Source of the DNA: Spiroplasma endosymbiont of Aspidapion aeneum
GTDB taxonomy: Bacteria > Bacillota_I > Bacilli_A > Mycoplasmatales > Mycoplasmataceae
DNA: 64,000 nucleotides
NCBI RefSeq assembly: GCF_964031045.1
Contig: NZ_OZ034994.1
Coordinates: 124,001-188,000, forward strand
Direction: 5' to 3'
The position numbers and the translations under genes are program-made. A model generated the notes under the pieces. The model had not been told where the DNA came from. It saw only the letters and a list, made by a program, of their open reading frames with translations, and ran no database searches. This document shows positions 14,611 to 21,010 of the stretch, one piece after another (the stretch's first letter is position 1; each line of letters begins with the position of its first letter).

Positions 14611-15555
14611 ATGGATAAAATTTTCAAATATAAGATACTATTTTATTTTTTATATTTTTTTGTAGCTGCATTTATTTTGTTTTTAATTAATAGAATTATA
14701 ATTAAAATAATAAATTGTAATTCATTACGATCTAAAATTGAGAAAAAACAAAAAGGTTTACTTATTAATAAAAATAAGTATATATGTTGTGACCTAAATG
14801 AGTTAGAGTGTAAATCAGAAATAAATAAAAGAGATAAAATTGTTATAATTGCCCCTGATTTATTTGAACCATTATTTATTTATGATGATTTTATAGGCTA
14901 TTTATCCCACCAAGACATTTGTGATTATTTTATTTATAAACAAAGAAATATGTTATTAATTCAAAAGGAAAAAAGAGTATTAGGAAATTATTTAGAGGAT
15001 TTATTAGACATTATTAATTATTTCAAAGAAAAGAATTACTATAAAGAAATAGTATTGATAACAAGTGGCTTATTTGCAAATTTATCATTAACTATTTCAA
15101 ATAAAAATATAGTTGATAAAATAATAGTGCTTAACTATGCAAATAAAGGGTTTAAATATGAAAATAAATATGCAATGAAATTACATATAAATACTATATT
15201 ATTTCAGTACAATCCTATCCCTTGCAAACTGGATAAAACCACTTTATCTGGGGAAAAACTTTTTGATAAAAAAATAATTGAATATCATCTTGAATTTGCT
15301 TTTTTTTCATCTGTGATATATTATCAAATGTTAAAAGCTATTAAAAAATTTTACAATAGCGTGAATAAGTCAAAAGCAGTTATTTATTTTAAAAATTCAA
15401 AAAATAATAATAATTTGAATGCAAAGAAATTTGTAAAAATGCTTAGTTTTGTAAAATCAGAATATGAAGTTGAAATTTTTAATGATTCTAGCAATTTTTT
15501 TCTAAATGATGCAGAAAAATTGATAGTTTTCAACTCAATAATTAGTATAATTTAG
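14611..15555 (+). CDS. Unknown membrane-anchored protein
   Basis: A 314-residue protein I do not recognise. Residues about 8-33 form one strongly hydrophobic segment, followed by a basic region, so it is probably anchored with the rest in the cytoplasm. The soluble part alternates strands and helices: VIIAPDLFEPLF, then a helix, then EIVLITSGLFANLSLT, then IIVLNYANKG. This order recalls an alpha/beta-hydrolase fold, with SGLF near the nucleophile elbow, but GxSxG is not preserved, so catalysis is doubtful. A good AAGGATAAAA precedes the ATG. It lies eight bases after ymdB and just before metK, within the same operon-like run. No TGA codons. Confidence 0.8.
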   Translation: MDKIFKYKILFYFLYFFVAAFILFLINRIIIKIINCNSLRSKIEKKQKGLLINKNKYICCDLNELECKSEINKRDKIVIIAPDLFEPLFIYDDFIGYLSHQDICDYFIYKQRNMLLIQKEKRVLGNYLEDLLDIINYFKEKNYYKEIVLITSGLFANLSLTISNKNIVDKIIVLNYANKGFKYENKYAMKLHINTILFQYNPIPCKLDKTTLSGEKLFDKKIIEYHLEFAFFSSVIYYQMLKAIKKFYNSVNKSKAVIYFKNSKNNNNLNAKKFVKMLSFVKSEYEVEIFNDSSNFFLNDAEKLIVFNSIISII

Positions 15556-16853: not shown

Positions 16854-17762
16854 GTGAGTAATTTGAAAAATATAGTTAGTAATAATGAATTAAATTTGAA
16901 AAATAAAAAAAATGATATTCAAAATAAACGCAAAAATATTAGAAATGTTGATTTGTTAAAGAGAAATCTATTTAGGATTTGTATTCTTGCTTTTATTGGT
17001 GGTATTTTTATTTTGTTATCAAGCATAGATATGATATATCGTTTCACAGATCCTAAAAGATTATCAAAATTTATTAGCGATGGTTTTATGGGAACCAATA
17101 AAAATAAGTTTTACTTTAATATTATTCATTTTTATGGAATTTTGTTCGGTTATATTGGAGCAATCATTATTTTATTTTATGCAATATTGATATTGACCTA
17201 TATCTTTATTAATAAGGCATATAAAAGATTTTTGTGGGGAATTACAATAGCCAATGCTTTTATAGCGATATTATTAGCAATTGCTATAATAGTGCTATTA
17301 ACACAAATTCTTTATGAAATTAAAACAACAAAGTTTTCAATGGGAGAGAGTGATTATACTTTTAAACCAGCGAGCTGAGTTGCAAAGGCGATAGGTGTTG
17401 TGAGTATATCTGCAATTGGCGGAAAAATGAACTATCTTATATGGGTTGTTGTCATAGCTATGGTTTATTCTGGTTTGGGCATTTTACTTTTTATTTTATG
17501 TAGTTTTTCTTTATTAACCGGAAACAAGATTATTTCACCAGAAGTTATAAAAAACAGCAATAATAAAAGACTAAAAAGAAAATTATCAAATAAAGAAAAA
17601 AGAAGCATAAAAAGAACCGCAAATCAGGAAAGGCGAGCGGAAGCATTCATTAAAAGAGAAAATATAAAGCGAGAGAAGGGCATCACTTTATTAACAACTG
17701 AGAAAACAAAAAAATTTAAGAATGGCAAAAAGACAATAGAAAATAATAACAAACAAAATTAG
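16854..17762 (+). CDS. Unknown polytopic membrane protein
   Basis: A 302-residue protein with a basic N-terminal 40 residues, four to five hydrophobic spans (about 45-62, 95-122, 128-152, 186-220) and a very basic lysine/arginine-rich C-terminal tail of about 85 residues, likely cytoplasmic. One TGA (17376-17378) is Trp. The start is uncertain: GTG at 16854, or TTG at 16863, which would have AAGGTGAG spaced four bases upstream. It is eleven bases before a large coiled-coil protein, so the two probably work together; a membrane anchor for that protein is a reasonable guess. No family recognised. Confidence 0.75.
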
Positions 17763-17773
17763 AAGGAATTTTT

Positions 17774-20005
17774 ATGGAGAGAGTAAAATTCAGAACAACA
17801 TCTACAACAAAAGGAATAATTAAGGATGTTTTTTGTAGGGAATCGGATAATATATATAAAGGAAAAGAGTTATTTTCTATTGCTATGGATCAAAGTGAAT
17901 TAATTGTAAAATCACATATCGATGGTAGAATAAAAAAAATTTATGTATCTGTTGGAAAAACTATTAAAGATACTGATATTTTATGCGACATACTAACACA
18001 AGAAGAGGCCGATTATAAAAACTCTAATATTGAAAAATTTGACGAAGAATCTGTAAATACATTTAATTCTGAATTTGATATAAATGATTTATTGTCAGAT
18101 GAATATATTAGTGACCAATTTGAAAATGACTATGACGATAGTTTTGTTGATAATATATTAAAAGAGAAAACTATTACTGATCAAATATTTAAACAAAAAG
18201 ATACTAACAATACAATTATGAGTCATTATGACGATGTGGTGGATAAATTAACAGATGAACAAATTTCACCATCACTAAGTAAGGTTTTGATTTCGCTCCG
18301 CAAGGAATTATTATCGCTATTGGTTTTTAATAAGGAATTATCTGAAAAAATAGAAGATTTTAATAAAAATGAAATTAATAATGCTAAAAAAGAAATAGAA
18401 GATATAAATTTAAAATTAAATAAATATTCACAAAAAAACACAATGAATATTGAAAAAAGAATAACCGATATAGAATCTAATTTATCTACAGAAATAAAAA
18501 AATTAGCAGATAGATATAATGGATTACACTCTCAAATTACTAAAGCAAAAAACAGGACCGATGAAATTAATAGTAAAGTTGAAGAAATCATCCTAAGTTT
18601 AGGAATAGGTTATGACGATTCAAATCTTATTGAAAAAGTAAAAATATTAGATGATGGAATATCATCTCTTAAAACAAAATTAAACCTCATTGAGGAAAAT
18701 ATAGATTCAAAAGTAATTAACTATGATGATGTAAGAATAGTTGCAAAAATTAAAAATTTATCAGATACTATTTTAAATATGAAGACAAAGATAGATCTTA
18801 TCGATGTAGATTTAATGGGTTCTAAATTTGATGAAAAGTTTGAGGCATTTAGTAAATCTCAAAAGAATATAAAGGAATTGCTTGAAAATAAGATTATTAC
18901 AGTTAACGATGATGTTGAGAAAATTGCAATACAATTGAACAATTTAGAATTTAAAATTAGTCAAAATCTACATTCTAAAGATAAAAACAAAAACTATGAT
19001 GAATTATTTAAAGCTATTGAGAAAATTACTATTAAAGCAGACAAATTTGATGTTCAAAATGAGGATATCAAGAAAAATATTCAGCACTTATTGGGTACTG
19101 AAAGCAAGATTAAGAAAATAGAAGATAATATAAAATCTCTTCCTAGTTTATCTTCAATTGAAAAAACAAAGGAAATGATAAATAATTTAAATGATAAAAT
19201 TAATTCATCACGTGAATCAATGACCTTAGGTCCTCTTAAACAAAAAATTGCACATTTAGAAATACAATTGAAAAATATACCTTCATTAGCCTTTTTAGAT
19301 AAATTGGAAGAAAGAATTAATAATCTTGATTCAAAACTAAAGCAAGAAAAAGATAAAAATATAGAAAGTAAAAAAGAAATAATTGAACTAAAAAAAATAG
19401 TTAATAAACTGAATAAAAATATAGCAATATCGCAAAAACAAAAATCAACAAATAGCAACGATATAATGGTCCATATAAACAAATTTGAGATGGAATATTC
19501 TCTCACTAATTTGGTACAATTTTATGAGGAGAATGCTTTTTATATAAATACCCTTGATTCTCCTGTTAGAATTGATTTTATTTTTTATAAATCTATTCAA
19601 CAAGCAATTGAAACAACAAATCTTATTAAGATAAATAATTTAACAATTCCTAAGTTTTCGTCTCAAAAAGAAGAGGGTATTACATATAAGGCTATATCAT
19701 TTAAGGATAAGTCTCTTGATGAAATCTATGAAAAGCATGATAAAGTCGCTAAAAGAACAGATAAAATTGGCAAAGTTTCCATAACGGATAAAAAATATTA
19801 TAATAAAATATGAGATGTTTTTGAAAAAACATCTACAGCTGAGGTATTAATAATATTCAATTCAATTCAAAGGAAGAATACACCAGAAAATAAATCTTCA
19901 TTACCTGTAGAATTTTACATTAAAAGCAACATTAATAATGATAAAATAGATAAATTTTTACTGGAATTAGACAAACTTATAAGTAAACCACAATTAATAG
20001 ATTAA
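17774..20005 (+). CDS. Large coiled-coil protein with lipoyl/biotinyl-like N-terminal domain
   Basis: A 743-residue protein. Residues 1-78 resemble a biotinyl/lipoyl (barrel-sandwich) domain: SIAMDQSELIVKSH, then DGRIKKIYVSVGK and a closing DILCDIL. The modified lysine of true carriers is replaced by Gln40; its 11-residue distance to Gly51 matches the family. Residues about 80-155 are acidic. About 160-570 is long heptad-like helix with repeated segments of the form LxxIExNIxSxxSL, i.e. a coiled coil. About 575-743 looks globular with mixed strands. One TGA near residue 680 is Trp, adding the last 64 residues. No signal peptide or membrane span. The architecture recalls membrane-fusion adaptors but without an anchor. 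The membrane protein gene just upstream is a likely partner. Function unknown. Confidence 0.85.
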
Positions 20006-20029: not shown

Positions 20030-21010
20030 ATGATAAGCATAAAAGATATTAATCAAGATATAAAAACAGTACAAATATTAGTTAGATGTGACAAAGTTTT
20101 ATCAAATATATCAAATAATGGTTCAAGCTATATGGCTATTCATCTTGTTGACCCCACAGGGAGGATTGAAGCCAGATTATGGAATTCATCCAAGAGCGAT
20201 GAGGGTGCTTTTATAGTTGACAATCTCTATTTAGTTGAAGGGAACGTTGTCATATATAAAAATATTTTACAACTTAAGATAAATAACTATAAAGTGGTTA
20301 GTAATGATGAGTTAAAAAACTTTGGTATTAAAGAAGACGATTTTTTTCATAAAGCAAATATTGATATAGAAAAGGAATATAAATTTATAATTGATTTAGT
20401 TTCTAAGTTTAAAAATAAGACATATTCAATCATAACATTAGAATTATTGAAAAATAATGAAAATAAATATAAGACATATCCGGCGGCAATGACAATTCAT
20501 CATAATGTAATAGGTGGTTTATTATGACATTCTGTTAGCTTGTTAAAAGCTGCAATTGCCCTACAACCTGTCTATGAATATTGTGATGTTGACTGAGAAT
20601 TAGTTTATGCTGGAACAATTTTACATGATATTGGTAAAGTAATTGAGATGAATAGCAAAAGAGCAACTAATTACACATTAGCTGGTAAATTAATGGGTCA
20701 TATTTCGATTGGAAATGCTCTTGTTGAGGAAATGGCAAAAAAATTCCAATTTAATCTATCTAGCGAGTCATATGAGGATGTTATTCGCTTACAACACGTT
20801 ATTCTTTCTAGCCACGGTAAATATGAATTTGGGTCGCCAGTTGAACCACAATTATTAGAAGCAATTATAGTTTCATCACTTGATCTTTTAGATTCAAGTA
20901 TTAATCATATTGATTCAGAATTAAAAAAAATAGATATTGGTAATTTTACACAAAGAATTATTTACCAAAATAATAGAATGTTTTTCTCTCATTATAAAAA
21001 AAATAAATAG
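20030..21010 (+). CDS. yhaM: 3'-5' exoribonuclease YhaM family (OB-fold plus HD domain)
   Basis: A 326-residue protein. The N-terminal OB fold (about 10-90: YMAIHLVDPTGRIEARLW) binds nucleic acid. The HD phosphohydrolase domain (about 150-300) has TIHHNVIGGLLWHS, the metal motif ILHDIGK and LQHVILSSHGKYEFGSP. This matches YhaM, a 3'-5' exonuclease acting on RNA and single-stranded DNA. TGA codons in LLWHSV and VDWELV are Trp. A bidirectional terminator follows. Confidence 0.92.

Follow-up and report, generated by a model that had tools for sequence, protein, structure and literature searches.

The window analysed here (64,000 nucleotides; positions 124,001 to 188,000 of contig NZ_OZ034994.1) comes from the Spiroplasma endosymbiont of Aspidapion aeneum, a mollicute that reads TGA as tryptophan. 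Its genome of 1.21 Mb encodes Fib and MreB, and no other species of the genus is represented in the collection. The gene under study lies on the forward strand at 17774–20005 and encodes 743 amino acids. Translation table 4 is needed for all 743 codons, because codon 680 is a TGA (19811–19813; W680) and a table 11 reading ends at 19813. An AAGGA motif resembling a ribosome-binding site (17763–17767, forward strand) stands 6 bases ahead of the ATG. The gene is flanked by metK and a membrane-protein gene (16854–17762, forward strand) on one side and by a yhaM homologue (20030–21010, forward strand), directly downstream, on the other. The membrane-protein gene lies 11 bases upstream, as the first-pass annotation had pointed out, and is probably co-transcribed with 17774–20005. 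However, its multi-spanning product of 302 aa occurs in its own genome only, with no relative in the 59 other genomes of the family, and it is therefore not a conserved partner. In other genomes, its locus is occupied by trmFO-like or other genes. The yhaM gene was found in all 60 genomes of the family and was used as a synteny anchor; it is not considered a functional part of the system. The window also encodes, at 14611–15555, a 314-aa protein that matched no Pfam or NCBIfam family; many relatives have it conserved at this place, with ymdB and metK as neighbours.

Four regions can be distinguished in the 743-aa protein. First, residues 1–78 (17774–18007, forward strand) form a biotin/lipoyl-type barrel-sandwich domain, modelled with a pLDDT of about 92. 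The biotinyl/lipoyl fold proposed earlier persisted in the profile search on which the first-pass annotation had staked it: PF00364 matched residues 10–73 with 27.3 bits in the whole protein and 32.8 bits in the fragment (gathering cut-off of 22.1). The position of the modified lysine is taken by Gln40 (codon 17891–17893, forward strand), as had been read from the sequence. The ungapped distance from Q40 to G51 is 11 residues, equal to the K-to-G spacing in the E2 of the same genome (ETDKVNSDIYAPVGG). Second, residues 79–165 (18008–18268, forward strand) are an Asp/Glu-rich linker that is predicted to be disordered (pLDDT mostly below 50). Third, residues 166–558 (about 390 residues; 18269–19447, forward strand) showed a hydrophobic period of 3.5 residues, with a heptad z-score of 5.8 against shuffled sequences, and long helices in the model, which bears out the long coiled coil described earlier. 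Fourth, residues 559–743 (19448–20002, forward strand) make up the globular end. In this member, the domain is undetectable by sequence alone; AlphaFold and Foldseek, together with the orthologues described below, point to a degenerate E2 acyltransferase-like domain without the HRxxDG motif. It ends in KPQLID (residues 738–743; 19985–20002, forward strand), the counterpart of the C-terminal NPGLLI of the family. The absence of a membrane anchor was likewise confirmed, as none was seen in the translation of 17774–20005.

As a lone query, the window protein retrieved no orthologue; all its matches in related genomes were lipoyl domains belonging to other genes. Since yhaM is present in all genomes of the family, its upstream neighbourhood was used to find the orthologues. 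Reading this neighbourhood revealed, in the Spiroplasma-like genera g4, g5, g7, g8 and g9, a gene family, here termed family A, whose products share the start ME.IKF......KGI...VFV; in most genomes that carry it, the gene is located directly upstream of yhaM. Among 13 orthologues, 8 matched PF00198, with a best E-value of 5.9e-44. When a subset of family A members including the window protein was aligned with true E2 by HHalign, an E-value of 1.8e-11 was obtained. The catalytic HRxxDG was absent from all 37 aligned members, and 8 true E2s from the same bacterial family have it. None of the 37 carries a lysine at the lipoyl-turn position, and the peripheral subunit-binding domain was not matched at E<=0.01 in members of family A or of the second family described below. 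Thus, family A is a paralogue of E2 that is dead at both catalytic ends, i.e., a pseudo-E2. Relative to E2 of pyruvate dehydrogenase, it no longer has the lipoylated lysine or the catalytic His/Asp, and the subunit-binding domain is gone as well; what it kept is the overall layout, a knob and a core domain joined by a flexible or coiled arm. Both end domains are under purifying selection, with dN/dS of 0.03–0.3 in most diverged pairs, and the linker is looser. Within family A, the window protein and some g8 members have a strong coiled coil, and the remaining members a weak one; hence, arm length and stiffness vary among members. A literature search on Spiroplasma yielded no paper describing this protein, in keeping with the earlier remark that no family could be named for it. 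Family A is a real family of non-catalytic E2 derivatives, hitherto unnamed in the literature searched.

The window protein is the most divergent member of family A and its longest branch, so its own membership was assessed separately for the two ends. An early BLAST link to the orthologues over the coiled coil had been obtained with composition correction switched off and was excluded as evidence. The score of the window protein against the full-family profile is circular, because the protein sat in the alignment, and was replaced by a leave-one-out test. Against a profile built without it, the N-terminal domain scored 51–58 bits (E of 5e-15 or better); for comparison, the lipoyl domain of the genome's own E2 reached about 24 bits on an earlier family profile. 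The C-terminus gave a different result: a profile made from the C-termini of the other 36 members failed to detect it, with hhalign it reached a probability of 5.9, compared with up to 7.3 for shuffled sequences, and its tail reads KPQLID instead of NPGLLI. This may be read as the loss of the E2-like end, with the N-terminal domain alone being shared and the C-terminus being some other domain that evolves fast or was newly gained. Yet the gene occupies the same locus and has the same domain order as its orthologues, and the best hhalign path is collinear and runs to the C-terminus. In addition, Foldseek searches with an AlphaFold model of the window protein, based on an alignment without true E2, returned E2 cores as best matches (1e-6 to 1e-7, probability of 1.00). 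When the C-terminal domain was modelled separately, with E2s included in the alignment, an E2-like fold with a pTM of 0.76 resulted, and M. tuberculosis E2b was matched with 1.6e-9 and a TMq of 0.70. This E2-like fold rests on synteny, on the orthology of the N-terminus and on a model built with the sequences of relatives. Taken on that footing, the window copy likely has an E2-like end, and its replacement by an unrelated domain appears unlikely. With its C-terminus as the second half of an E2, the whole window protein would be a degenerate E2 paralogue.

The first-pass annotation had seen neither that the C-terminus is probably this second half of E2 nor that a second pseudo-E2 family exists. 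It had likened the design to HlyD-type adaptors, and an adaptor of this kind might act with the upstream membrane protein. A barrel-sandwich domain followed by a coiled coil, and weak matches to HlyD_D23 and Biotin_lipoyl_2, speak for such a membrane-fusion adaptor. However, these matches stayed below the cut-offs (PF16576, HlyD_D23, 22.1 bits versus 30; PF13437, 13.3 versus 22.2; PF13533 also below), and there is no membrane anchor. Moreover, the barrel-sandwich domain is complete and the coiled coil follows it instead of being inserted in it, the family has an E2-type far end, and the upstream gene is present in this genome only. A HlyD-type adaptor is thus rejected as extremely improbable.

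The true E2 of the genome is encoded in the pdh operon (L118:4172-5434) and carries HRIIDG. The second pseudo-E2 family, family B, is represented outside the window at contig positions 105293–107962 (L117:1294-3963) by a PF00198 protein of 889 aa with a lipoyl-like start without the lysine, a long linker and a well-conserved core. In this core, DHRxIDG has become DQRIIDA in most relatives and DQRTIEA in the genome's own copy, i.e., the catalytic His is replaced by Gln. Families A and B are alike in the lipoyl-like start lacking the lysine, the long linker, the dead E2 core and the clade in which they occur. In contrast to A, family B occupies a separate locus, has a conserved core with DQRIIDA and measures 890–1020 aa in most genomes; the two are not orthologous. 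In a tree of the core domains, A, B and E2 were separate. Since the branches of A are very long, this tree does not settle whether A and B share an origin. Departures from the usual architecture were seen elsewhere in the bacterial family: in G004 (L137:3378-4163), the true E2 has just 261 aa and no lipoyl domain, and a small separate ORF encoding a lipoyl domain follows it; in g10 (L146:2954-4555, L147:2043-4013), family B is without the lipoyl-like domain and Fib is divergent (36–44% identity).

An inactive E2-like core is a defining trait of E3BP, also called protein X (PMC10156792). Families A and B might accordingly be accessory subunits of this type, co-assembling with E2 and recruiting or tethering partners, and most of their carriers do have a true E2. 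The genomes of genus g7, in which yhaM is followed within a few kb by the pdh operon, bear on this possibility. The operon is intact in G017, and five related g7 genomes (G016, G020, G019, G024 and G025; L157, L158, L159, L161 and L162) have pdh loci that are damaged in different ways. Only pieces of pdhD remain in G016 and only a piece of pdhA in G019; nothing was found at the locus in G020 and G024; and G025 has a truncated pdhB together with frameshifts in pdhC and pdhD. No other E2 core was found in G016, G019 and G020. Nevertheless, A and B are open in G016, G019, G020 and G025, all four with lost or broken pdh genes. Among these four genomes, dN/dS of the B core was about 0.10–0.18 in 5 of 6 pairs. 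For the A core in these genomes, w was 0.34–0.91, from few substitutions, and constraint looks weak. In G024 (L161; G024:C1:88493-89626), A is broken by several stops, the pdh genes are gone too and B is still open. The subunit-binding domain was not detected in either family, and both A and B are absent from Fib-less relatives whose E2 is intact. Since A and B are open where pdh is lost or broken, an E3BP-like role is quite improbable.

The distribution of the two families was compared with that of Fib, an established ribbon protein derived from a nucleosidase. Full-length Fib was found in 42 of the 60 genomes, and strong MreB matches were found in the same genera. Family A is present in 40 of the 42 Fib-bearing genomes, with one copy being broken (G024), and family B in all 42, N-terminally shortened in g10. 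None of the 18 Fib-less genomes carries A or B, and no full-length A was found outside the family among 320 genomes of the order. Genus g10, with Fib and MreB present, is the only Fib-bearing genus without A. The 18 Fib-less genomes form one well-supported clade (FastTree); their shared absence thus counts as one event and alone cannot prove a functional link.

Taken together, we favour, with a little more than even confidence, the view that 17774–20005 encodes a pseudo-E2 acting as a non-catalytic multivalent scaffold, possibly, and more speculatively, as part of the cell tip or helical cytoskeleton. By analogy with E2 trimers, the core domain may still self-assemble. In E2 cores, trimers are connected through a conserved knob at the C-terminus (PMC8421416), and in family A the tail NPGLLI is the best-conserved segment of the alignment, with 3.0 bits; by the same analogy, this tail might act as the knob between trimers. 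Such a trimer or cage would extend long flexible or coiled arms tipped by barrel-sandwich knobs and could serve as a multivalent linker. Because A and B occur only in spiroplasmas bearing Fib and MreB, the scaffold might, with less certainty, serve the helical cytoskeleton or the tip of the cell. For the cytoskeletal linker suggested in the first-pass annotation, support is likewise circumstantial and comes from this co-occurrence.

The more specific proposal that the scaffold is a component of the Fib/MreB helical cytoskeleton or of its tip, e.g., the 'dumbbell', is a fair minority view, and on balance we would not expect it to hold. It gains from the co-occurrence and from Fib likewise being a converted enzyme. 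The missing tapered pole of reconstructed cells was ascribed to unknown proteins (PMC9710875); the tip proteins are unidentified in published work (PMC9710875, PMC5289999). Conversely, the co-occurrence amounts to one phylogenetic event, g10 manages without A, and in a minimal cell two MreBs alone were enough to rebuild the helix and swimming (PMC9710875). Neither A nor B is among the ribbon-fraction proteins: the published ribbon and Triton-insoluble fractions contained no protein of the size of A or B, and the dumbbell was not analysed separately there (PMC9582952, PMC5289999). That both inactivated E2 paralogues became structural parts of the helical cell, in the tip dumbbell or as ribbon cross-linkers, is put forward as a tentative and rather doubtful idea. 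If true, it would be the second conversion of a metabolic enzyme to the cytoskeleton in this lineage, after that of the nucleosidase to Fib, and A and B would be named candidates for the tapered-tip proteins missing from the reconstructed swimming cells (PMC9710875). For annotation, the two families are a warning that some proteins of these genomes match PF00198 well and yet are no acyltransferases.

The scaffold reading can be set against three known systems. First, the E2 of pyruvate dehydrogenase has the same domain order as family A, with an N-terminal lipoyl fold, a long linker and a C-terminal acyltransferase fold, and the cores of the orthologues are clearly PF00198. Unlike E2, family A has no carrier lysine, subunit-binding domain or HRxxDG, is encoded outside the pdh operon and is open without the complex. 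Second, E3BP (protein X, PDHX) is, like A, paralogous to E2 and inactive in its core domain; it is, however, defined by its E3-specific subunit-binding domain and its place in the complex, whereas in A this domain was not found and the complex can be absent. Inactive E2 paralogues are thus known from pyruvate dehydrogenase complexes as E3BP, and here two such families outlast the complex and are confined to spiroplasmas bearing Fib and MreB. Third, Fib resembles A in being lineage-specific, derived from a metabolic enzyme and present in the same genomes. It differs in its nucleosidase origin and unrelated fold, and it is established as a ribbon protein, which A is not.
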